Origin: Histidinibacterium aquaticum
GTDB lineage: Bacteria; Pseudomonadota; Alphaproteobacteria; Rhodobacterales; Rhodobacteraceae
Length of the DNA: 64,000 bases
Direction of reading: 5' to 3'
Assembly (NCBI RefSeq): GCF_008710275.1
Contig: NZ_VYQE01000002.1
Coordinates: 669,522-733,521, forward strand
The notes below the pieces were generated by a model that saw only the letters and a program-made list of their open reading frames with translations, had not been told where the DNA came from and did no database searches. This document shows positions 22,221-53,600 of this stretch, piece by piece (the first letter of the stretch is position 1; each line of letters opens with the position of its first letter). A program made the position numbers and the translations under genes.

Positions 22221-23041
22221 CCGGCCAGCGCGCTCCGGATCATGTTGAGCGCGACGAGGATCAGAAACACCCCGAAGACCCGCTTGAGCCGCTGCGCATC
22301 GGTCCGATGCGCGAGCGCCGCGCCCATTGGCGCCGTGATCAGCGTCATCGCGATGACGAGACCGAAAGCGACGAGATTGACCGAGCCGACGGTGAGCGGC
22401 GGCCGCACGGCCTCCGGCATCGGCACCACGAGAAAGCCCAGAACCGACGGGACGGCGATCAGCACGCCGAAGCCCGCCGCCGTCGCCACCGCGCGGTGGA
22501 TCGGGACGCCGTAGAGGCTCATGACCGGCACGCCGAAACTGCCGCCACCGATCCCCATCAGGACGGAGAGAAAACCGATGACCGGCGACATCACGGCGCG
22601 CAGCACGCCGACGGGCATGACCGGTCCGAGCCGCCAGGTGGACTTGCCCAAGGTCATGTAGAGGCCCACGACAACCGCAAGCGTCCCGAAAATGGCCTGA
22701 AGCCAGTCCGAACGCAGGCTGGAGGCGACGAGAACGCCGACCACCGCGCCAATGGCGATTCCCGGTGCCCAGCCCTTGAGGATGGACCAGTCGACGGCAC
22801 CCTTCCGGTTGTGCGCCGCGACGGAGCGCAGCGAGGTCACGATGATCGTCGCGAGCGAGGTCGCCAGGCACATCCGCATGAGTTCGGGACTGTCGTAGCC
22901 GAGCACGGCGAAGGCGTAGAAGAACGCGGGCACGAGGACGATGCCCCCGCCCACGCCCAGCAGGCCCGCGAGCACACCGGCGAATGCGCCGATCACCAGC
23001 AGCATCGCTCCCATCGCGATCAACAGTCCCATGTCAGGCAT
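22217..23041 (-). CDS. TauE/SafE family anion permease
   Basis: The 274-residue inner-membrane protein has about eight hydrophobic segments and the two repeated GVGGG[IS]-type motifs of the TSUP family (AGLLGVGGGIVLVPAFFY near the N-terminus, LMGIGGGSFGVPVMSLYG in the middle). The family exports sulfite, sulfoacetate and related organosulfur anions, or imports sulfur compounds. The start is the ATG at 23041. Substrate unknown; with a possible sulfite-producing pathway 25 kb away a sulfite role is conceivable but not supported by linkage. Confidence 0.85.
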   Translation of the reverse strand: MPDMGLLIAMGAMLLVIGAFAGVLAGLLGVGGGIVLVPAFFYAFAVLGYDSPELMRMCLATSLATIIVTSLRSVAAHNRKGAVDWSILKGWAPGIAIGAVVGVLVASSLRSDWLQAIFGTLAVVVGLYMTLGKSTWRLGPVMPVGVLRAVMSPVIGFLSVLMGIGGGSFGVPVMSLYGVPIHRAVATAAGFGVLIAVPSVLGFLVVPMPEAVRPPLTVGSVNLVAFGLVIAMTLITAPMGAALAHRTDAQRLKRVFGVFLILVALNMIRSALAG

Positions 23042-43300: not shown

Positions 43301-45742
43301 ATGACCGCGACGGCCGATCAGCTCATCGACCAGCTCACCCTCGAAGAGCAGGTCTCCCTGCTCTCGGGCGAGGATTTCTGGTCGCTCCCGGCCGTCCCCC
43401 GGCTCGGCATCGGCAAGCTCCGCGTGACCGACGGCCCCAACGGCGCGCGCGGCTCAGGCTCGCTCATCGGCGGCGTCACCGCGGCGGCCTTCCCCGTGGG
43501 CATCGCCATCGGCGCGACCTGGGACCCGGCCCTCGCCCGCGAGATCGGCTCGGCCATTGCCGAGGAGGTCCGCTCCAAGGGGGCGCATGTCTCGCTGGCG
43601 CCCACCGTCAACATCCATCGCTCCGTCACCAATGGCCGCAACTTCGAGTGCTATTCCGAGGATCCCGCGCTCGCGTCGGCCCTCGCGGTGGGCTACATCC
43701 GCGGCCTGCAATCGCAAGGCGTTGCCGCCACCATCAAGCACTTCGCCGGCAACGAGAGCGAGATCGAGCGGACGACCATCGACTCGGTCATCCCCGAGCG
43801 CGCCCTGCGCGAGATCTACCTCCGCCCCTTCGAGGCCGCCGTGAAGGAGGCCGGGACCTGGGCGGTCATGTCCTCCTACAACAAGCTCAACGGCACCTAT
43901 GCCGCCGAGAACCGCTGGCTGCTGACCACGGTGCTGCGCGGAGACTGGGGCTTCGACGGCGTCGTCATGTCCGACTGGTTCGGCTCCCGCACCACCGCGC
44001 CCACCGTCAACGCCGGGCTCGATCTCGAGATGCCCGGCCCCACACGCGACCGGGGGGCGAAGCTGCTTGCCGCGGTGGAGACCGGCGAGGTCGCCCGCGC
44101 GACCGTCCGGCAGAGGGCCCTCAACGTCCTCCGGCTGATGGAGCGCACCGGGGCCCTAGAGGATAGGGGCTCCTTCGAGGAGCGCGCCGAGGACCGCCCC
44201 GCGCATCGCGCCCTCATCCGCCGGGCCGGGGCGGCAGGATGCGTCCTGCTGAAGAACGAGGGCCTCCTGCCTCTGCCCGCCGAGCCCGGCCGCCTCGCGG
44301 TCATCGGGCCCAACGCACGCACGGCCCGGATCATGGGTGGCGGCTCGGCCCAGCTCAATCCGCACTACAGCGTCTCCCCCTGGGAGGGGCTGGCGGCCCG
44401 GCTCGGGGAGGCGCGCCTCGACTACGCTCCCGGTTGCGACAACCACCGCTGGGAGCCGCTTCTTCGGACCGCCCTCACCGCCGAATACTTCGACAACACC
44501 GAGCTCTCCGGCGCGCCCGTCCACGAGGAAGAGCTGGACGAGGCCCAGGCCTTCTGGGTGCCGCCCATCGCCGGGGGCAAGGTCACGCCCGGCGCCTTCT
44601 CCGCCCGTCTGACCGGCACCTTCACCGCGGAGAGTTCCGGCCTGCACCGCTTCGGGCTTCATTCCGCCGGCTACAGCCGCCTCTACGCCGACGGTGCGCT
44701 CGTCGTCGACGCCTGGTCCAACTGGCAGAAGGGACGCACCTTCTTCGAGGAGGGCTGCGACGAGGTCACCGGGGACCTCGAGCTGGAGCGCGGGCAGACC
44801 GTCGAGATCACCATCGAGTTCGCCGCCCGCCCCGGCGACAACCTCCACCTCTCGGCCTTCCGCGCGGGCATCGGCCGCCCCCTGGGCGACGCCGAGATCT
44901 CCGCCGCCGCCGAGGCCGCCCGCGCTGCCGACACGGCGCTCGTCTTCGTCGGCCGCTCCGGCGAATGGGATACCGAGGGCTCCGACCTCGAGGACATTGC
45001 CCTGCCCGGCCGCCAGGACGAGCTCGTCGCCGCCGTCGCCCGGGCCAACCCGCGCACCGTCGTCGTCCTGCAGACCGGCGGCCCGGTGGAAATGCCCTGG
45101 GCAGGCGACGTCGCCGCGATCCTGCAGGCCTGGTACCCCGGCCAGGAGGCAGGCAGCGCGATCGCCGACGTGCTCTTCGGCGACGCCGAGCCCGGGGGCC
45201 GCCTGCCCCAGAGCTTCCCGGTCCGCTGGTCCGACAATCCGACCGCAAGCGACGACCCCGAGGTCTACCCCGGCAAGGACGGCCAGGTGCGTTACGCCGA
45301 GGGCCTCTTCATCGGCTACCGCCACTACGAGGCAAAGGGCATCGCCCCCCTCTACCCCTTCGGCCACGGCCTCTCCTACAGCACCTTCGCGCTCTCCGGC
45401 CTGACCGCCGAAACCGCGACCGGCGGCGCCATGGCCCGCATCACCGTGGAGAACACCGGCCCGCGGCACGGCACGACCGTGGTTCAGCTCTACGTCGCCC
45501 CGCCGGAGATGGCGGAGCGTCCGCTCAAGACCCTCGAAGCCTTCGCGAAGCTCGACCTCGCCCCCGGCGAGCGCCGTGAGATCCACCTGACACTCCCGCC
45601 CCGCGCCTTCGCCCGCTTCGACGGGGACGCACAGGGCTGGATCATCGACCCGGGCCGATACCGCCTGATGGCGGGCCTTTCCGCCACCGACATCCACGAA
45701 ACCATGGAAATCGAGATGCAGGCGGCGACCCTCCCTCTCTGA
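43301..45742 (+). CDS. family 3 glycoside hydrolase (beta-glucosidase type) with PA14 insert
   Basis: The 813-residue enzyme has an N-terminal TIM barrel (1-300) with KHFAGNE (146-152) and the nucleophile Asp225 in VVMSDWFGSR. A second sandwich domain follows and is interrupted at about 390-530 by a PA14-like carbohydrate-binding insert (TAEYFDNTELSG through YSRLYADGALVVDAW). The acid/base Glu is probably in the GRSGEWDTEGSDLE segment (about 547-560), and a fibronectin-III-like C-terminal domain ends the protein. There is no signal peptide, so it acts on imported glycosides. This layout fits beta-glucosidases of the KlBglI type. It sits beside, but is not co-transcribed with, the putative sulfoquinovose genes. 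Confidence 0.92.
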   Translation: MTATADQLIDQLTLEEQVSLLSGEDFWSLPAVPRLGIGKLRVTDGPNGARGSGSLIGGVTAAAFPVGIAIGATWDPALAREIGSAIAEEVRSKGAHVSLAPTVNIHRSVTNGRNFECYSEDPALASALAVGYIRGLQSQGVAATIKHFAGNESEIERTTIDSVIPERALREIYLRPFEAAVKEAGTWAVMSSYNKLNGTYAAENRWLLTTVLRGDWGFDGVVMSDWFGSRTTAPTVNAGLDLEMPGPTRDRGAKLLAAVETGEVARATVRQRALNVLRLMERTGALEDRGSFEERAEDRPAHRALIRRAGAAGCVLLKNEGLLPLPAEPGRLAVIGPNARTARIMGGGSAQLNPHYSVSPWEGLAARLGEARLDYAPGCDNHRWEPLLRTALTAEYFDNTELSGAPVHEEELDEAQAFWVPPIAGGKVTPGAFSARLTGTFTAESSGLHRFGLHSAGYSRLYADGALVVDAWSNWQKGRTFFEEGCDEVTGDLELERGQTVEITIEFAARPGDNLHLSAFRAGIGRPLGDAEISAAAEAARAADTALVFVGRSGEWDTEGSDLEDIALPGRQDELVAAVARANPRTVVVLQTGGPVEMPWAGDVAAILQAWYPGQEAGSAIADVLFGDAEPGGRLPQSFPVRWSDNPTASDDPEVYPGKDGQVRYAEGLFIGYRHYEAKGIAPLYPFGHGLSYSTFALSGLTAETATGGAMARITVENTGPRHGTTVVQLYVAPPEMAERPLKTLEAFAKLDLAPGERREIHLTLPPRAFARFDGDAQGWIIDPGRYRLMAGLSATDIHETMEIEMQAATLPL

Positions 45743-45880: not shown

Positions 45881-46969
45881 TCAGAGAGTGACGGCCTGCC
45901 CGGTCTCCGCGCTCGTCTGTGCCGCGAGGCCGATTTCCACGGCGCGCGCACCGTCCTGCCAGGTGACGTCCACTTCGCCCTGCCCGCGCACCACCGCGAG
46001 GAAGCGCTGGTGCTGGAAGAAGGTCGAGCCGTTGTGGTCACCGGCCTCGAGCAGCGCCGGATCGACGGGGATCTGGCTCTCGATGGGGCCCTTCGGCGCC
46101 CGCGGACTCTGGATCAGGCGCGGCACCGGGGCGGGTCCCAGCTTGGACGGCCAGAACCGGCCGGGCCCCGGCACATGGCATTCGATCTTGCCGCGCGGCC
46201 CCACGGCGCTGATCTCCTCCTGGTAGCGCGAGCCCTCGGCGAACATGCAGAGCTCCAGCATCGCCCGCGCGCCGCCGGCGAAGTCGAGAATGACGTAGCC
46301 GTTGTCCCAGACGTCGGGCACCCGGCCCGAATAGAGCTCGTCGCGGTGGTTCAGCGTCTGCCCGGCGCTCGCCATGACACGCACCGGCTCGTCCTTCAGG
46401 ATCAGGCGCATGAGGTCGAAGAAGTGACAGCACTTCTCAACCAGCGTCCCGCCGGTATTGGCGTTGAACCGGTTCCAGTTGCCGATCTTGGGCAGGAAGG
46501 GAAAGCGGTGCTCGCGGATGCTGAGCATCGAGATCCCGCCCGTTGCGTGGTCGGCCTGGTCCACGAGCGCGGCGATGGGCGGCATGTAGCGGTACTCCAT
46601 CGCGACCCAGAGCGCGGGCAGCGCGGCAGCGATCTCGGGCAGAGCGGCGCGATCCTCGGGATCGGTGAAGAGCGGCTTCTCGCAGAGCACGGGCAGTGGC
46701 CGGCGCGCGGCGATGGCGCGGAGCTGGTCGACGTGCAGGTGGTTGGGGCTGACGATCACCAGCGCATCGAGCCCCTCGAAGGCCAGCAGCGCGTCGAAGC
46801 TGTCGCAGACCGCCGTCTCCTCCCGGGTCAGCGCCGCCGCGCTTTCGGCCAGCTCCCGGACCGGATCGTAGACCGCGGCCACCCGGGCGCCCTGCAGCAG
46901 CATGATATTCTGGATATGCTCGCGGCCCATCATGCCGCATCCGATGATCCCGTAGTTGACGACGTCCAT
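45881..46969 (-). CDS. Gfo/Idh/MocA family oxidoreductase, candidate NAD-dependent sulfoquinovosidase (GH188-like)
   Basis: The 362-residue protein has an N-terminal dinucleotide fold (YGIIGCGMMGREH, residues 6-18), CEKP at 96-99 and a central EKCCHFFDLMR (178-188), the usual position of the catalytic histidine region in Gfo/Idh/MocA enzymes. Most members are sugar dehydrogenases. Established knowledge: NAD-dependent sulfoquinovosidases of GH188 belong to this superfamily and occur beside sulfoquinovose genes. Here the gene is 2 bases downstream of a GntR regulator and faces the monooxygenase operon, so a role in releasing or processing sulfoquinovose from its glycosides is a reasonable inference. 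A plain inositol or sugar dehydrogenase is the alternative. Confidence 0.8.
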   Translation of the reverse strand: MDVVNYGIIGCGMMGREHIQNIMLLQGARVAAVYDPVRELAESAAALTREETAVCDSFDALLAFEGLDALVIVSPNHLHVDQLRAIAARRPLPVLCEKPLFTDPEDRAALPEIAAALPALWVAMEYRYMPPIAALVDQADHATGGISMLSIREHRFPFLPKIGNWNRFNANTGGTLVEKCCHFFDLMRLILKDEPVRVMASAGQTLNHRDELYSGRVPDVWDNGYVILDFAGGARAMLELCMFAEGSRYQEEISAVGPRGKIECHVPGPGRFWPSKLGPAPVPRLIQSPRAPKGPIESQIPVDPALLEAGDHNGSTFFQHQRFLAVVRGQGEVDVTWQDGARAVEIGLAAQTSAETGQAVTL

Positions 46970-46971
46970 CC

Positions 46972-47676
46972 CTATGCCTTTCCCATGCGCGACACGTAGC
47001 GGCAGCGGGCCGCGTCGTACCAGGTGCGCGAGGCCTCGACCCGGGCGCCGTCCTGCGCCCGGCTCAGCCGCTCCACGTAGCCGCAAGTCTCTCCGGGCCT
47101 CAGCCCGGACCGTTCCGGCGCCCAGTCCGGGGCGGGCGCGAGGCCCACCTCGTCCGCGACCGCCGTGATCGTGATCCCCAGTGCCCTGCGGTAATGCAGG
47201 TAGAGCGATTCCGACAGGTCCCCGGCCTCGAGCCGCGGGGCCCGCGAGGCGCAGAGCCAGATTTCCTCGAGAGCCACCGGCGTCCCGTCCAGCGAGCGCA
47301 GTCGCCGGATCCGGTGCGCCTCTGGCCCTTCGCCGAACTCCGGCAGGTCCGAGGGCTTCGCGAGCCGGGTGACGTCCAGAACCGCCGCCGTGGGCAGGCC
47401 GCCGCCGCCCGGCCGCTCCAGCCGGAAGAATCCGTAGACCGAGGCCGGCGCGTCCTGCGCGCGGATGTAGTTGCCGGACCCCTGGATGCGCCGCAGGAGC
47501 CCCGCCTCCGCCAGCCGGTCCAGCGCCTTGCGCAGGGTGCCCACCGAGACCCCGAGCTCGGCCGCGTACTCCCGCTCCGGCGGCAGCCGCGTCCCGTCCG
47601 CGAGGCGTCCGGCGGCGATGTCGCGGATCAGCATTTCCGCGATCTGGACATATCTGGGAAGCGAGGGGCCATCCAT
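46972..47676 (-). CDS. GntR/HutC family transcriptional regulator
   Basis: The 234-residue regulator has an N-terminal winged helix (RYVQIAEMLIRDIAAGRLADGTRLPPEREYAAELGVSVGTLRKALDRLAEAGLL, residues 8-62) and a C-terminal UTRA ligand-binding domain with TPVALEEIWL and PGETCGYVERLSRAQDG. UTRA domains bind sugars or related metabolites and relieve repression. It is divergent from the monooxygenase operon, with a repeated motif in the shared gap (47699-47723), and overlaps no neighbour; the oxidoreductase follows 2 bases downstream. It probably controls both directions. Confidence 0.9.
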   Translation of the reverse strand: MDGPSLPRYVQIAEMLIRDIAAGRLADGTRLPPEREYAAELGVSVGTLRKALDRLAEAGLLRRIQGSGNYIRAQDAPASVYGFFRLERPGGGGLPTAAVLDVTRLAKPSDLPEFGEGPEAHRIRRLRSLDGTPVALEEIWLCASRAPRLEAGDLSESLYLHYRRALGITITAVADEVGLAPAPDWAPERSGLRPGETCGYVERLSRAQDGARVEASRTWYDAARCRYVSRMGKA

Positions 47677-47698
47677 GGCGCTGCCGTCCGATTCAGAA

Positions 47699-47723
47699 TT
47701 GATACATCATTGATGCATGTCAA
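47699..47723. promoter_or_regulatory. candidate operator of the GntR-family regulator
   Basis: TTGATACAT (47699-47707) and TTGATGCAT (47710-47718) form a direct repeat with an 11-base step, one turn of the helix. The outer bases TTGA and TCAA also give an imperfect inverted repeat over the 25 bases. It lies in the 95-base gap between the regulator and the divergent monooxygenase gene and is AT-rich compared with its surroundings. Confidence 0.5.
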
Positions 47724-47771
47724 ACCCCGTGCTACGCAACCTTTGTGGTTAGCGCAAGCAAGAGGGAATCG

Positions 47772-48929
47772 ATGACCGTCGTACCCGTGACATCCGCCGA
47801 TCTCGATGCAGCCGAGGTCTCGTGGTTCGCCGCCCTGTGTTCCGACGACTACCGGAAGCTCGGCGTGCCGGAGGGCGACCTGCGCTCGTCCTTCGAACAT
47901 TGCCGCGACATCACCCTGACGGCGGAGAAGCAGGGCTTCCGCAACATTCTCTGCCCCTCCTCGTACCAGGTCGGCCAGGACACGCTCTCATTCGTCGCCG
48001 GCATGGCGCCCCTGACCGAGAGCATCAACATGCTGGGCGCGATCCGCTGCGGCGAGATGCAGCCGATCATGCTGGCGCGCACCGTCGCCACGCTGGACCA
48101 CATGCTCAAGGGTCGGCTGACTCTCAACGTCATTTCCTCTGACTTCCCCGGCGAGAAGGCCGACAGCGCCTACCGCTACCAGCGCTCGCGCGAAGTGGTG
48201 GAGATCCTCAAGCAGGCCTGGACGCAGGACGAGATCAACTACACCGGCGAAATCTATGATTTCAAAGGTCTTTGGACCGATCCCGCCAAGCCCTACCAGC
48301 AGAACGGCGGCCCGCTGCTCTACTTCGGCGGCTACAGCCCCCACGCGCTGGAGCTTTGCGGCCAGCACTGCGACGTCTACCTGATGTGGCCCGAGCCCGA
48401 GGAACAGCTCGCGCAGCGCATGAAGGACGTCCATCAGGTTGCTGAAAAGTATGGAAGAACGCTGGACTACGGCCTGCGCGTTCATACCATTGTCCGCGAC
48501 ACCGAGGCCGAGGCCAAGGAATATGCCGAGTACCTGGTGAGCGAACTCGACGACGAGCTGGGCACGCTGATCCGCGAGCGCGCGCACGACGCCTCCTCGC
48601 TCGGTGTCAGCCACCAGGCCCGTGCCCGCGAACTCGCCGACCAGTACGGCTATGTCGAGCCGCACCTCTGGACCGGCGTCGGCCGCGCCCGCTCGGGCTG
48701 CGGGGCGGCGCTCGTGGGCTCGACCGACCAGGTCCTCAGCAAGATCGAAAACTACAAGAAGATGGGCATCCGCGCCTTCATCTTCTCGGGCTATCCCCAT
48801 ATCGACGAGGCCGAGCATTTCGGGAGCCGCGTGCTTCCGGAGTTGAAAACCTGCTCGCTGCCCCATGTCTACGACCGGGTGCCCTCGGGCACGCCCGTCA
48901 CCCCTCTCGGTAACGGAGAACGCAAGTAA
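47772..48929 (+). CDS. LLM-class FMN-dependent monooxygenase, candidate sulfoquinovose monooxygenase (SmoC-like)
   Basis: The 385-residue protein is a bacterial luciferase-like monooxygenase of the SsuD type: LTAEKQGFRNILCPSSYQVGQDTLSF, ARTVATLDHMLKGRLTLNVISSDFPGE, and YRYQRSREVVEILKQAWTQDEINYTGEIYDFKG. Such enzymes use reduced FMN and oxygen, and SsuD and SmoC cleave carbon-sulfur bonds of sulfonates. The next two genes encode an aldo-keto reductase and a flavin reductase, the same trio as the Agrobacterium smo genes, in which SmoC turns sulfoquinovose into 6-oxo-glucose and sulfite. The family is seen in sequence; the substrate is inferred from context. The start ATG at 47772 has AGAGGGA upstream. 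Other sulfonates remain possible. Confidence 0.82.
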   Translation: MTVVPVTSADLDAAEVSWFAALCSDDYRKLGVPEGDLRSSFEHCRDITLTAEKQGFRNILCPSSYQVGQDTLSFVAGMAPLTESINMLGAIRCGEMQPIMLARTVATLDHMLKGRLTLNVISSDFPGEKADSAYRYQRSREVVEILKQAWTQDEINYTGEIYDFKGLWTDPAKPYQQNGGPLLYFGGYSPHALELCGQHCDVYLMWPEPEEQLAQRMKDVHQVAEKYGRTLDYGLRVHTIVRDTEAEAKEYAEYLVSELDDELGTLIRERAHDASSLGVSHQARARELADQYGYVEPHLWTGVGRARSGCGAALVGSTDQVLSKIENYKKMGIRAFIFSGYPHIDEAEHFGSRVLPELKTCSLPHVYDRVPSGTPVTPLGNGERK

Positions 48930-49814
48930 ATGAACCGCGTGCGGATCACCGACGACCTCGACTTTTCCCGCATCGTCTACGGCATGTGGCGGCTGGGCGA
49001 CGACAGTGACACCAGCCCCGAGACCGTGCGCGACAAGATCGCGGGCTGTCTCGACCAGGGCATCACCACCATGGACCAGGCCGACATCTACGGCGGTTAC
49101 ATGGCGGAGGAGATTCTCGGCAACGCGCTCACGCCCGAGCTGCGCAACCGGATCGAGGTCGTGACCAAGTGCGACATCGTGATCGACGCGGGCCGCCACG
49201 CCGGTGCCCGGGTCAAGCACTACGACACCTCGCGGGCCCATATCGAAGGCTCGGTCGACGCCTCGCTGAGGCTCATGGGCCTCGATGCCATCGACCTGCT
49301 GCTGATCCACCGGCCCGACCCTCTGATGGACCACCACGAGACCGGGCGCGCGCTCGACGATCTGGTCCGTGCCGGCAAGGTCCGCGCCGTGGGCGTGTCG
49401 AACTTCCGGCCCTGGGACTGGGAGCTGCTGCAGTCGGCGATGGAGACCTCTCTGGTGACCAACCAGATCGAGCTGAGCCTCGCCGCGCACGAGCCCTTCA
49501 CCAACGGCGACCTGGCCTTCCACCAGCGCCACGGTCACCCGATCATGGCCTGGTCGCCCCTCGGCGGCGGCAGCCTGATGACCGGTGACGGGCCCGTCGC
49601 CACCATTCTCGACCGCGTGGCGGGAGAGCAAGGCGTCGACCGTGCCGCGGTCGCGACGGCCTGGCTGCTCGCTCATCCCGCCGGCATCCTGCCCGTCATG
49701 GGCACCAACAACATCAACCGCATCAAGAGCTTGTCGGACGCCCTGAAGGTGGACATGGACCGCCAGACCTGGTTCCAGCTCTACGAAGCTGCACTGGGGC
49801 GCGAGGTCGCCTGA
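48930..49814 (+). CDS. aldo/keto reductase, candidate 6-oxo-glucose reductase (SmoB-like)
   Basis: The 294-residue barrel enzyme has the AKR marks: RIVYGMWRLGDDSDTSPETV, MDQADIYGGYMAEEILG with the catalytic Asp and Tyr, the lysine in VVTKCDI, LLLIHRPDPLMD with the active-site His, and VGVSNFRPWDWELL. A cofactor-binding C-terminus ends MGTNNINRIKSLSDALKVDMDRQTWF. It starts immediately after the monooxygenase stop and is followed by the flavin reductase. In the SMO pathway the AKR SmoB reduces 6-oxo-glucose to glucose with NADPH, and several segments here (GMWR.GDD, ARVKHYDT, SNFRPWD) resemble that protein as I remember it. General AKR is certain; the specific substrate is inferred. Confidence 0.85.
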   Translation: MNRVRITDDLDFSRIVYGMWRLGDDSDTSPETVRDKIAGCLDQGITTMDQADIYGGYMAEEILGNALTPELRNRIEVVTKCDIVIDAGRHAGARVKHYDTSRAHIEGSVDASLRLMGLDAIDLLLIHRPDPLMDHHETGRALDDLVRAGKVRAVGVSNFRPWDWELLQSAMETSLVTNQIELSLAAHEPFTNGDLAFHQRHGHPIMAWSPLGGGSLMTGDGPVATILDRVAGEQGVDRAAVATAWLLAHPAGILPVMGTNNINRIKSLSDALKVDMDRQTWFQLYEAALGREVA

Positions 49815-49834
49815 TGGACGGAGGGCTGCACGCG

Positions 49835-50320
49835 ATGGCCGATATCGACCCAACCGTGGATGCCCGCGCCTTTCGCGATGCCCTCGGCTCCTTCGCGACC
49901 GGGGTGACCGTCGTGACCGCCCGGGGCGAGGAGGGCCCCGTCGGGATCACGGCCAACAGCTTCGCCAGCGTCAGCCTCGATCCGCCGCTCGTGCTCTGGT
50001 CGCCGGCCAAGCAGTCAAGCCGCTTCCCCGCCTTCCGGGCGGCGGAACACTACGCGATCCATGTTCTTGGCGCCCACCAGCAGGGCATCTGCGACGGCTT
50101 CGTCCGCGCGCGCGATGCCTTCGAGGGTACCGACTGGACCGAGAGCCCGGAGGGCGTTCCGCTCCTGCCCGGCTGCCTCGCGCGCTTCGAGTGCCGATTG
50201 GAGGCGGCACACGACGCGGGCGATCACGTCATACTCGTGGGGCGCGTCCTGCGCGCGGCCCACGGGACCGGCGAGCCGCTCCTGTTCCAGGGCGGCCGCT
50301 TCGCACAGTTCGGGGGTTGA
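49835..50320 (+). CDS. flavin reductase family protein, candidate SmoA-like partner of the monooxygenase
   Basis: The 161-residue protein has the flavin reductase-like FMN-binding fold: FRDALGSFATGVTVVTARGEEGPVGITANSFASVSLDPPLVLWSPAKQSSRF, HYAIHVLGAHQQGICDGF, and a C-terminal GDHVILVGRVLRAAHGTGEPLLFQGGRFAQFGG. It supplies reduced FMN to a two-component monooxygenase, most likely the one two genes upstream. An ATG at 49814 overlaps the previous stop, but the strong site GGAGGG at 49820-49825 lies inside that version and is placed 9 bases before the ATG at 49835, which I take as the start. Confidence 0.88.
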   Translation: MADIDPTVDARAFRDALGSFATGVTVVTARGEEGPVGITANSFASVSLDPPLVLWSPAKQSSRFPAFRAAEHYAIHVLGAHQQGICDGFVRARDAFEGTDWTESPEGVPLLPGCLARFECRLEAAHDAGDHVILVGRVLRAAHGTGEPLLFQGGRFAQFGG

Positions 50321-50398
50321 TCCCGCCCCCACGGCGATAAACGCTGAAGTTTCACGGGACGACGCCGGCACGCCGGCGCGGGATCAGGGAGGAGGCCC

Positions 50399-50995
50399 AT
50401 GCGGGCGTTGTTGGGAGTGCTGTGGCCGCTCGAGCGGCTGAACAGCGGCCTCTTGGCCGTCGGGCGGATCATTGCCGTGATCGCCCTCGCGGTCATGGTC
50501 TGCCTGATCCTGGGTCAGGTCTTCTTCCGTTACGTGCTGAACGACGCGCCCAACTGGACCGAGGAGGGCGCGCGCTTCGGGATGATCTGGCTCGTCGGCC
50601 TCATGGCCCCGCTTGCCTATCGCCAGGGGGGCTTCGTCGCCATCGACATGCTGGAACGCGCCCTGCCCGGCCGCGCCGCCGGTCTGCTGACCCTGGTGCT
50701 TCTTGCGATCTCGGCCTGGGTGCTGCTGATCCTCTGGGACAAGGGTCTCAACAACCACGTCGACAGCCTGTCGGGCCGAGGATGCTCGTCCAGCCTGCGC
50801 TGGCCCTTCGGGATCGAGATAGGCAAATGCGGCAACCGGTTTCAGAACAGCTACCAGTACGCGGGGCTCTGGGTCGGGGTGAACCTGCTGATCCTTGTGA
50901 ACGTCGAGCTCATCCTGCGCCAGATCGTGACGCTGCTGGGCGGCGGCGACAAGCTGCGCGACCTCACAACCACCGACATGGCCGGAGCCGAGTGA
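50399..50995 (+). CDS. TRAP transporter small permease (DctQ type)
   Basis: The 198-residue protein has four membrane helices (about 20-45, 58-78, 92-115 and 150-175) and the DctQ pattern VFFRYVLNDAPNWTEEGARFGMIWLVGLMAPLAYRQGGFVAIDML. Between helices 3 and 4 it has an unusually long polar loop with two cysteines (SLSGRGCSSSLRWPFGIEIGKCGNRFQNS). A weak hairpin (50363-50378) lies in the 78-base gap after the flavin reductase, followed by GGGAGGAGG before the ATG. It works with the next two genes as a three-part importer. Confidence 0.9.
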   Translation: MRALLGVLWPLERLNSGLLAVGRIIAVIALAVMVCLILGQVFFRYVLNDAPNWTEEGARFGMIWLVGLMAPLAYRQGGFVAIDMLERALPGRAAGLLTLVLLAISAWVLLILWDKGLNNHVDSLSGRGCSSSLRWPFGIEIGKCGNRFQNSYQYAGLWVGVNLLILVNVELILRQIVTLLGGGDKLRDLTTTDMAGAE

Positions 50996-50996
50996 G

Positions 50997-52469
50997 ATGC
51001 TGATCTGGTTCCTGCCCCTCTTCCTGGTGCTGATCCTGGTGGGCCTGCCCGTCGTCTTCGCCCTTCTGGCGGCGCCCTTCGCGCTGCTCGTGGCCGACGA
51101 CCAGGCGCGCCAGCTCTCGGTGCTCTACCGCAACCTCTACACCGGCATGGACAGCTTCCCGCTGATGGCGCTGCCCTTCTTCATGCTGGCCGGCGAGATC
51201 ATGAACCGGGGCGGCATCACGACCCGGCTCGTGGAGTTCAGCCAGGCCTTCATGGGCCACCTCCGCGGCGGCCTCGCCCACGTCAACATCCTGAGCTCCA
51301 TGCTCTTCGCCGGTCTCTCGGGTTCGGCGGTGGCGGATACCTCCGCACTCGGCTCGACACTGATCCCGGCGATGGAGAAGAACGGCTACACCCGCCGCTT
51401 CGCCGCCGCGGTGACGGCGGCCTCCTCGGTCATCGGGCCGATCATCCCGCCCTCGGGCATCATGATCATCTACGCCTACGTCATGGGCGAGAGCGTCGCC
51501 GCGCTCTTCCTCGCGGGCATCGTGCCGGGCGTCATGGTCGGTGCGGGACTGATGGTCATGGTCCGGCTGCTCGCAGACCGATACGACCTGCCGAAGGCCG
51601 AGCGCATCGTCCACGCGAACCAGCAGATCAGCGGCCTAGAGTACTGGGTGAGCTTCGTGCTGCTGCGGCTCAATCTCGGCGGCCTGCTGACGGTGATCCT
51701 GAACGCCGCCCTGCCCGACAGCATCAACCCCTGGATCAACTTCGCCGTGGCGCTGCTGGTCGCGCACATGCTGCTGCTGGCCTATCGCAAGCGGGTGAGC
51801 CACGACTTCCGCGTCATCTGCAAGAAGGCGGTCGCCCCCCTGCAGACACCGATCATCATCCTCGGCGGCATCCTGATCGGCGTCTTCACCCCGACCGAGG
51901 CCTCCGCCATCGCCGTCGCCTACGCGCTCATCGTGAGCTTCTTCGTCCTGCGCTCCATGCGCCTGCGCGACCTGACGGGCGTTCTCAGCCGCTCGGCGCT
52001 TGCGACTTCCGCCGTGCTGCTGCTCGTGGGCGCGGCGGTGAGCTTCAAGACGGTCGTCTCGCTGTCCTACGCGCCGCAGATCCTCACGGACGCGATCCTC
52101 GGCCTTTCCGAGAACCCGCTGATCCTGCTCTTCCTGATCAACGTGCTGCTCTTCGTCGTCGGCATGTTCCTCGACGCGGGACCCGCGATCATCATTCTCG
52201 GCCCGATCCTCGGTCCCATCTTCACCGAGCTCGGCGTGCACCCGGTCCACTTCGCCATCATCATGTCGGTGAACCTGACTGTCGGTCTCGCGACGCCGCC
52301 CATGGGGCTGGTACTCTTCGTGGCCTCGACGGTCAGTCGCGAGAAGGTGGAGACCATCGCCAAGGCGATCCTGCCCTTCCTCGCGGTGGAGATCTTCGTG
52401 ATCTTCCTCGTCACCTACTTCCCCGCCTTTTCCATGACGATCCCGCGTCTCACCGGGTTCGTCCAATGA
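50997..52469 (+). CDS. TRAP transporter large permease (DctM type)
   Basis: The 490-residue, 12-helix-type protein is the ion-driven translocator of the TRAP system. Characteristic parts are GMDSFPLMALPFFMLAGEIMNRGGI, LFAGLSGSAVADTSALGSTLIPAM, AASSVIGPIIPPSGIMIIYAYVMGESV and a C-terminal NLTVGLATPPMGLVLFVASTVSREKVE. It is somewhat longer than typical DctM (about 425-430) owing to a polar segment near residues 195-260. It begins 1 base after the dctQ-like stop. Confidence 0.93.
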   Translation: MLIWFLPLFLVLILVGLPVVFALLAAPFALLVADDQARQLSVLYRNLYTGMDSFPLMALPFFMLAGEIMNRGGITTRLVEFSQAFMGHLRGGLAHVNILSSMLFAGLSGSAVADTSALGSTLIPAMEKNGYTRRFAAAVTAASSVIGPIIPPSGIMIIYAYVMGESVAALFLAGIVPGVMVGAGLMVMVRLLADRYDLPKAERIVHANQQISGLEYWVSFVLLRLNLGGLLTVILNAALPDSINPWINFAVALLVAHMLLLAYRKRVSHDFRVICKKAVAPLQTPIIILGGILIGVFTPTEASAIAVAYALIVSFFVLRSMRLRDLTGVLSRSALATSAVLLLVGAAVSFKTVVSLSYAPQILTDAILGLSENPLILLFLINVLLFVVGMFLDAGPAIIILGPILGPIFTELGVHPVHFAIIMSVNLTVGLATPPMGLVLFVASTVSREKVETIAKAILPFLAVEIFVIFLVTYFPAFSMTIPRLTGFVQ

Positions 52470-52492
52470 CCACCAGCAACAGGGAGAGAAAC

Positions 52493-53548
52493 ATGCTGAA
52501 CGGTCTCAAGACGGCGGCGCTCGCCGCGCTCGTCGCGGGCAGCGCGAGCCTCGCCACCGCGCAGGAATACACGCTGCGCGCCACCGCCAACTCCAACGAG
52601 AACGACGAGGACTACGACGGTCTCGTGGTCTTCAAGAACTACGTCGAACAGGCCTCCAACGGCGCCATCGAGGTCGAACTCTTCATCGGCACCCAGCTCT
52701 GCTCCACCGGCGCGGAGTGCCTCGAGGGCGTCTCCGAAGGCTCGATCGACATCTACATCTCCACCTCCGGCGGCGCGGCGGGGATCTTCCCCTACGTGCA
52801 GGTTCTCGACCTGCCCTACGTCATGACCTCCGACCGCGTGGCCGAGGCCGTGCTCTCCGGTGACTTCGTCCGCACCATGCGCGACATGGCGCTTGAGGAC
52901 TCCGGCGACACCGTGCGGCTCATGACCATCGGCAACACTGGCGGCTGGCGCAACTTCGCCAACACCCAGGGCACGGTGGAAGTCCCCTCCGACCTCGAAG
53001 GCATGAAGATCCGCACCGTGGTCGCCGACCTGCCGCAGGAGCTGGTCTCGACCCTGGGCGCCTCGCCCACGCCGATCCCGTGGCCCGAGCTCTTCACCTC
53101 GCTGCAGACCGGCGTGGTCGAAGGCTCGAAGAACGGCATCACCGACATCATGGGCATGAAGTTCCCCGATGCGGGCCTGCAGTACCTCACGCTCGACGGC
53201 CACGCCTACATGGGCGCCCTGTGGTGGATGAACAACGAGACGTTCATGTCCATGCCCGAGGACCTGCGCCGCGTCGTCGTGGACGGCTTCTACCAGCTCC
53301 AGCAGGCCACTTTCGCCTCGCCGAAGCGCAAGTCGATCCAGGCCTACCAGGACTTTGCCGAGGCCGGCGGTGAGATCTACGTGCCCACGCCAGAGCAGAT
53401 GCAGACCTGGGCCGAGGCCGCAGCTCCCGTTCAGGACTGGTTCCGCGAGAACGTCGACGGCGGCCCGGAGATTCTCGACGCCATGCTCGCCGCGGTCGAA
53501 GAGGCCGAGGCCGACATGGAAAGCGACTACGAGGCCGACCTCAACTGA
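52493..53548 (+). CDS. TRAP transporter solute-binding protein (DctP type)
   Basis: The 351-residue periplasmic protein has a signal peptide (MLNGLKTAALAALVAGSASLATAQE) and DctP-family features: LEGVSEGSIDIYISTSGGAAGIFPYVQVLDLPYVM, a conserved arginine segment GMKIRTVVADLPQELVSTLGASPTPIPWPELFTSLQTGVVEGSKNGI, and LQYLTLDGHAYMGALWWMNNETF. Charged and aromatic residues in the cleft would suit an acidic sugar. The start is the ATG at 52493 with AGGGAGAG; an ATG overlapping the dctM-like stop at 52466 lacks a ribosome site and would bury the signal peptide. Its position in the putative sulfoquinovose operon makes sulfoquinovose or its glycerol glycoside a candidate ligand, which is inference. Confidence 0.92.
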   Translation: MLNGLKTAALAALVAGSASLATAQEYTLRATANSNENDEDYDGLVVFKNYVEQASNGAIEVELFIGTQLCSTGAECLEGVSEGSIDIYISTSGGAAGIFPYVQVLDLPYVMTSDRVAEAVLSGDFVRTMRDMALEDSGDTVRLMTIGNTGGWRNFANTQGTVEVPSDLEGMKIRTVVADLPQELVSTLGASPTPIPWPELFTSLQTGVVEGSKNGITDIMGMKFPDAGLQYLTLDGHAYMGALWWMNNETFMSMPEDLRRVVVDGFYQLQQATFASPKRKSIQAYQDFAEAGGEIYVPTPEQMQTWAEAAAPVQDWFRENVDGGPEILDAMLAAVEEAEADMESDYEADLN

Positions 53549-53569
53549 TCCCCGGCTCCGGCCGGATCG

Positions 53570-53600
53570 CGGGCGCCCCTCGGGGCGCCCGTTCTCGTTT
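53570..53600 (+). terminator. rho-independent terminator after the TRAP operon
   Basis: GGGCGCCCC, a two-base loop and GGGGCGCCC (53571-53590, extended by one C-G pair) are followed by TTCTCGTTT. It closes the monooxygenase/TRAP operon 21 bases past the last stop. Confidence 0.88.

Follow-up and report, generated by a model that had tools for sequence, protein, structure and literature searches.

Sulfoquinovose (SQ) is the sugar of plant and algal sulfolipid, and the sulfoquinovose monooxygenase (sulfo-SMO, or sulfo-ASMO) pathway strips its sulfur group using O2. The sulfo-SMO cluster of Agrobacterium carries a GH31 sulfoquinovosidase. For Agrobacterium and Novosphingobium, two papers (PMC9594981, PMC12890257) describe a SmoC/SmoB/SmoA enzyme set, with O2-dependent C-S cleavage leading to sulfite and glucose. 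The occurrence of sulfo-SMO in roseobacters is stated in PMC13372026, and according to PMC10755693 nearly all sulfo-SMO clusters of marine bacteria from the Roseobacter clade include GH188. The pathway enzymes themselves are already known. The present analysis concerns a 64,000-nucleotide stretch of the Histidinibacterium aquaticum genome (the window), in which eight genes of this Rhodobacteraceae/roseobacter bacterium very probably constitute a sulfo-SMO operon acting on SQ and on SQGro, the glycerol glycoside of SQ. This assignment was made by sequence comparison, from the gene identities, the catalytic residues, and a neighbourhood and an operator that are both conserved. It applies to the pathway as a whole, and the substrate of the tripartite ATP-independent periplasmic (TRAP) transporter, the binding of the regulator to the operator and the fate of the sulfite are less sure. 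The features of the locus are as follows.

45881-46969, minus strand: GH188 NAD+-dependent sulfoquinovosidase (SqgA type), Gfo/Idh/MocA fold, 362 aa (PDB chain matches and conserved contacts)
46972-47676, minus strand: GntR/UTRA regulator, 234 aa (Pfam GntR and UTRA)
47698-47714, plus strand: tandem operator ATTGATACATCATTGAT, two ATTGAT units 11 bp apart (exact ATTGATN5ATTGAT in 128/143 intergenic regions)
47730-47739, plus strand: TGCTACGCAA block, probable extended -10 element of the smoC promoter (conserved spacing to the operator)
47772-48929, plus strand: SmoC, FMNH2-dependent sulfoquinovose monooxygenase of the LLM family, 385 aa (79% identity to 7olf/7oh2)
48930-49814, plus strand: SmoB, 6-dehydroglucose reductase, an aldo-keto reductase, 294 aa (66% identity to 7bby)
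49835-50320, plus strand: SmoA, flavin reductase, 161 aa (Pfam Flavin_Reduct, 142.5 bits; a start at 49814 is also possible)
50399-50995, plus strand: TRAP small permease DctQ (Pfam DctQ)
50997-52469, plus strand: TRAP large permease DctM (Pfam DctM; TIGR00786 over cut-off)
52490-53548, plus strand: TRAP solute-binding protein DctP, 352 aa, or 360 aa if the start is at 52466 (Pfam DctP)
53569-53592, plus strand: terminator-like hairpin of 10 pairs, 3' of dctP (hairpin scan)

The window SmoC was compared with all PDB chains (phmmer). The best matches were 7olf (713.7 bits) and 7oh2 (711.3 bits), which we take to be SmoC structures although their chains are named methanesulfonate sulfonatase and alkanesulfonate monooxygenase in the PDB; the best SsuD chain reached 196.5 bits. 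Either SmoC chain was 79% identical to the window protein (384 residues), compared with 33% for SsuD. All of W206, R236, H238, Y341 and H343, presumably the active-site residues of SmoC, are kept in the window protein. The SmoB protein was 66% identical to 7bby, presumably itself SmoB, and 42% identical to the next PDB relative, 4r9o (417 bits vs 201). A Flavin_Reduct gene lies directly 3' of smoB, and its product is the putative supplier of FMNH2. The first-pass annotation had proposed a sulfo-SMO pathway, to be given up if the monooxygenase grouped with other LLM enzymes or lacked the sulfonate-binding residues of SmoC; neither was the case, and the proposal was supported. SmoC, SmoB and the GH188 protein all matched solved enzymes far above the next families. 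In the proposed route, SmoA would provide FMNH2, SmoC would use it with O2 to cut the C-S bond of SQ, giving sulfite and 6-dehydroglucose, and SmoB would reduce the latter to glucose.

Gene calls and family scans returned the coordinates and families of the first-pass annotation for the named genes. The GH188 and gntR genes share the minus strand with a 2-base gap, facing the smoC operon, and all three TRAP subunits (DctP, DctQ and DctM) are encoded together in the window. The packed run of genes into a complete TRAP transporter, as first described, was upheld, but its single terminator was only suggestive, as the hairpin scan of the region gave 3 sites against a mean of 2.7 in shuffles.

The GH188 protein matched PDB chain 8zn9 at 507 bits and the SqgA chains 8qc3 and 8qc2 at 363 and 361 bits, the next chain scoring 71. 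Its identity was 64% to 8zn9 and 51% to the characterised ArSqgA. PMC10755693 gives eight ligand contacts for ArSqgA, and all eight are identical in the window protein: the sulfonate contacts R166, L170 (backbone) and K172, and the sugar contacts K107, Y136, E189, H193 and H321 (chain index minus 13 gives the numbers of that paper). The Glu163 printed there for ArSqgA does not agree with the chain sequence when numbered by the offset that suits the eight contacts; a glutamate at 164 would. An inositol dehydrogenase was considered for this Gfo/Idh/MocA protein and rejected (109 bits vs a cut-off of 355). The genome, 99.99% complete, held no match to GH31 (PF01055), a control search being positive in 6/14 genomes, and its next GH188-like protein scored 33 bits vs 830. 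With GH31 absent, this genome has GH188 alone of the two known sulfoquinovosidase families. The earlier suggestion of a glycosidase of a different class was correct. GH188 in roseobacter sulfo-SMO clusters was, however, already in print in 2023 (PMC10755693). The GH188 enzyme would convert SQGro to SQ and glycerol in an NAD+-dependent reaction. The protein starts at its Rossmann motif and no leader was visible by eye; as the enzyme needs NAD+, it would act in the cytoplasm, which implies that SQGro itself is imported.

To place the locus among its relatives, 394 genomes drawn evenly from the family were searched for SmoC at E <= 1e-100, and 165 of them, the window genome included, had it. Of the other 164 SmoC loci, 149 were fetched, the 15 left out being the lowest-scoring, and 135 of the 149 were informative (sequence reaching 5.4 kb or more downstream and 2 kb or more upstream; one locus per genus). 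GH188 was present in 130 of these 135, a divergent GntR gene adjoining smoC in 129, SmoB as the next gene in 131, and SmoA in 123. This type of TRAP transporter (DctM with at least 50% identity) was found in 90, and all eight genes were collinear in 88, an order far beyond chance. The TRAP-linked layout is the commonest among SmoC-bearing relatives. The claim of a different importer class was right in that a TRAP transporter stands instead of an ABC (ATP-binding cassette) importer, but the window is not peculiar in having it. Of the 80 named loci whose SmoC was closest to that of the window, 49 had the TRAP genes (one of them, L039, showing dctQ and dctM only before its contig ends), 28 were without them and 3 were too short; the SmoC of Tranquillimonas rosea was 88% identical to that of the window. 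The minimum number of changes in TRAP presence on the SmoC tree was 27, whereas 200 shuffles required 38.8 on average. The distribution of the transporter is clustered yet patchy, and the change count leans on weak branches (62 of the 151 inner branches).

The eight-gene layout was also annotated in all three PLSDB records inspected, those of Ruegeria TM1040, Roseivivax THAF197b and Rhizobium SL42, each with the operator upstream of smoC; in Rhizobium SL42 a putative sulfate exporter gene lies directly 3' of dctP. SmoC-like proteins with 52-53% identity were observed on plasmids of Spirosoma and Emticicia (Bacteroidota; PLSDB hits H22-H24). A GH3 glycosidase with a PA14 insert beside the cluster (43301-45742) was rejected as a member, as a search of the 80 named SMO loci with a threshold of 1e-8 gave no homologue.

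The intergenic region between gntR and smoC (95 bp; ATTGATACATCATTGATGCATGTC starting at 47698) contains a tandem repeat, ATTGATN5ATTGAT. Across 143 intergenic regions, the window included, the repeat was exact in 128 and had at most one mismatch in 142, while among 2860 shuffled regions two reached 11/12 matches and none reached 12. TACGCA, TATGCA or TAGGCA followed exactly 18 bp after the second ATTGAT in 124/143 regions, and the TGCTACGCAA block is probably the extended -10 element of the smoC promoter; a scan of the region for a consensus sigma-70 promoter gave no match. A stricter form of the operator, ATTGATNCANNATTGAT, was exact in 112/143 regions. The GntR/UTRA protein is proposed to bind the tandem operator, which would overlap the smoC promoter, and so to control the divergent gntR-GH188 and smoCBA-TRAP units. 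The conserved tandem operator is a new element of this analysis, no literature search having been aimed at it.

The strict form was then counted genome-wide. It occurred in 32/40 SmoC-positive genomes, a figure that is partly circular as the motif was derived from the same smoC upstream regions, and in 1/40 SmoC-negative genomes, with 0/80 for the reversed control. Independent evidence comes from this control, from the SmoC-negative genomes and from sites that do not adjoin smoC. The 40 SmoC-positive genomes came mostly from the top of the ranking rather than at random, with the addition of G330, chosen for a second site at its locus (G, C and L numbers are our handles for genomes, contigs and loci). 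By coordinate comparison, 29 of the 38 strict sites were beside smoC and 9 were elsewhere. A loose form (one or two mismatches) matched many likely coding positions, often inside smoB.

Several copies away from smoC accompanied genes of the pathway. Strict operators were found between a relocated gntR and smoB-smoA (G330 C85, L331), before a relocated GH188 gene in a genome whose SMO locus is without GH188 (G151, L333), and in a cluster from which smoC is missing, where the operator separates gntR-GH188 from smoB-smoA-TRAP, the two units facing each other (G040, L337, C37:6000-12000; no SmoC match at 1e-100 in this genome). At the smoC loci L131 and L229, a copy lay just before the relocated gntR. 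Other sites were harder to relate to the pathway: one lay between a PdxR-family regulator and a 288-aa gene without family assignment (G249), and exact sites in G063 C25 and G330 C11 were by genes without an evident link. It might be argued that the tandem ATTGAT is merely the smoC promoter and no GntR operator, as a distance of 17 bp separates the second TTGATG from TACGCA, plausible for a -35/-10 pair, and as the doublet persists before smoC in G167, with the ACA triplet lost, although no such GntR was found in that genome at E <= 1e-10. We consider this unlikely, though it is the most serious of the alternatives: a plain promoter has no need of doubling, nor would it explain the copies beside the relocated gntR-smoBA, GH188 and gntR genes, or those before two SoeA-like genes described below.

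The GntR operator, if it is one, may extend to the disposal of sulfite. Only one other site in the window genome has at most one mismatch (C4:374657-374673). It lies upstream of a gene for a 338-aa PF03601 protein (L247 1501-2562), its end 28 bp from the start codon (ATG), and has 20/24 bases in common with the site at smoC; the number of one-mismatch sites expected by chance, for random sequence with 68.5% G+C and independently drawn bases, is about 0.03 per genome. The protein matches the YeiH putative sulfate exporter model, though below the cut-off (140 vs 233 bits), and its gene (C4, about 374.7 kb) lies directly 3' of a serine acetyltransferase gene. When up to two mismatches were allowed, four forward sites in total were counted in the window genome, against one for the reversed control, and at the two sites with two mismatches (L248, L249) no recognised sulfur gene started alongside. 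A YeiH homologue was present within the fetched stretch around smoC in 11/149 loci, 10 of them on the strand of smoC, and somewhere in the genome in 28/60 SmoC-positive genomes. A SorA/SorT/SoxC-like protein was present in the window genome but scored far below the cut-offs. A TauE/TSUP-type exporter domain, one of eight in the genome, was observed in the window at 22241-23002 on the minus strand (168.6 bits to PF01925).

In two other genomes, a strict operator precedes a molybdopterin oxidoreductase gene: one encodes a 943-aa protein with a 4Fe-4S partner (G257, L332), and the other a 941-aa homologue of it, downstream of xsc and a 249-aa gene without family assignment (G372 C1, L335). These proteins are called SoeA-like here by analogy, from the 4Fe-4S partner in L332, the xsc gene upstream in L335 and the Ruegeria pomeroyi gene list in PMC4334477, where soeCBA is beside pta and near tauR. 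No SoeA model was among their NCBIfam matches, which were weak matches to PhsA/DMSO-reductase models only. An exact operator was also found before a ribBA-like gene and ribH, both riboflavin synthesis genes (G372 C2, L330 1486-3229). Sulfite would be expected to leave the cell through a YeiH-type exporter encoded elsewhere, or to be oxidised.

Taken together, the chances are about even that these sites belong to a roseobacter-type GntR/UTRA regulon, in which the tandem ATTGAT couples the uptake of SQ and the cleavage of its C-S bond with the disposal of sulfite and also, in a single genus, with riboflavin synthesis, and with TRAP transporters as a class of sulfosugar importer of which we found no description in the literature covered. 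Uptake would be by TRAP (by ABC importers in other genera), sulfite would be handled by a YeiH exporter here and by a SoeAB-like dehydrogenase in two other genera, and riboflavin synthesis would serve the FMN-dependent monooxygenase. Several observations weigh against the main reading of the locus, a sulfo-SMO operon with its TRAP importer. Within the fetched stretches, outside which importers would be missed, 45/135 informative loci were without this TRAP transporter. Of these 45, 11 had a gene of the cluster represented by an SBP_bac_1 binding protein, 15 had either such a gene or an ATPase with permeases, and 30 were without an ABC importer as well, by a crude test in which ABC genes were recognised through sequence clusters of which the representatives alone were scanned; one of the 30 (L131) had a different TRAP system. 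The only same-genus relative searched (G065, L106) has SmoC, SmoA, GH188 (85%) and GntR in place, but neither SmoB nor TRAP genes at the locus, and a search of its genome gave no SmoB or DctP orthologue (best SmoB-like protein 33%, best DctP-like protein 25% identity). An operator with at most one mismatch before yeiH was present in 1/31 loci, that of the window genome only, while L264 has one with two mismatches.

No description of SQ degradation coupled to a TRAP importer was found, within a partial coverage of the literature outside which key roseobacter, Agrobacterium or sulfoquinovosidase papers may have it; in PMC12890257, PMC13372026, PMC12421959 and PMC11659671 no mention of TRAP in the transporter sense was found. 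The DctP of the window was 65-89% identical to 40 SMO-linked DctPs. An AlphaFold model of it, built on an alignment of 41 related sequences only and for the protein without ligand, had a mean pLDDT of 82.9. Its top PDB fold match was the isethionate binder IseP (8t9t; E 7.5e-25, TM score 0.76), although many other TRAP binders score near IseP and 4p47 has a higher TM score (0.80). The match would fit an anionic sulfonate ligand. Residues R154, R175, N215 and W198 are invariant in 41 SMO-linked DctPs and would be compatible with an anion-binding site, by analogy with SiaP. The TRAP transporter is predicted to bring SQGro and/or SQ into the cytoplasm. Given its pairing with the pathway in the commonest layout, uptake is probably ion-gradient-driven rather than ATP-driven.

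It is improbable, to a greater degree than for the promoter alternative, that the enzymes are sulfo-SMO but the TRAP transporter imports a sugar acid or a short sulfonate, or free SQ only, with SQGro entering otherwise. The loci without this TRAP nearby, 15 of them with ABC importer genes, are in line with that idea, as is the presence of the sugar-acid binder 7bbr among the DctP fold matches. Against it, the TRAP genes stand alongside smoCBA in two thirds of the informative genera, nearly always collinear, DctP is well conserved across 40 loci, and its best fold match binds a sulfonate. Moreover, ABC genes occupy the same place in other genera, which suggests interchangeable importers, and in one case (L192) a one-mismatch operator copy, weak on its own, precedes the ABC binding-protein gene. 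That the operon serves mainly for SsuD-type scavenging of sulfur from alkanesulfonates was dropped as highly implausible. SsuD is the nearest other named family, but the monooxygenase has 33% identity to it and 79% to the solved SmoC chains, and its neighbours SmoB and GH188 belong to SQ-linked families.

The locus represents a known pathway and is well conserved; the regulon is the fresh and testable part. What is added here is that the layout most often seen in SmoC-bearing relatives couples the known enzymes to a TRAP importer, and that the operator can serve as a searchable marker which flags candidate sulfite-handling genes and makes predictions of expression testable. In comparison with the sulfo-SMO systems of Agrobacterium and Novosphingobium, the window shares the SmoC/SmoB/SmoA enzyme set, whereas its glycosidase is GH188 and that of the Agrobacterium cluster is GH31. 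Its importer is of the TRAP type, whereas an ABC importer for SQGro is described for Agrobacterium (PMC9594981). The GH188 protein belongs to the same family as SqgA and has the same ligand-binding residues, with no essential difference. IseP (8t9t) and the window DctP are both TRAP binders by fold, and IseP binds a sulfonate, but the two are 23% identical and the substrate of IseP is a two-carbon sulfonate, not a sulfosugar. Among roseobacter sulfo-SMO clusters, TM1040_RS02205-RS02240 of Ruegeria sp. TM1040 is one example of a close likeness in layout: it is located on a megaplasmid, has a SmoC 78% identical to that of the window, and agrees with the window in all eight genes as annotated, their order and orientation included, and in the operator.

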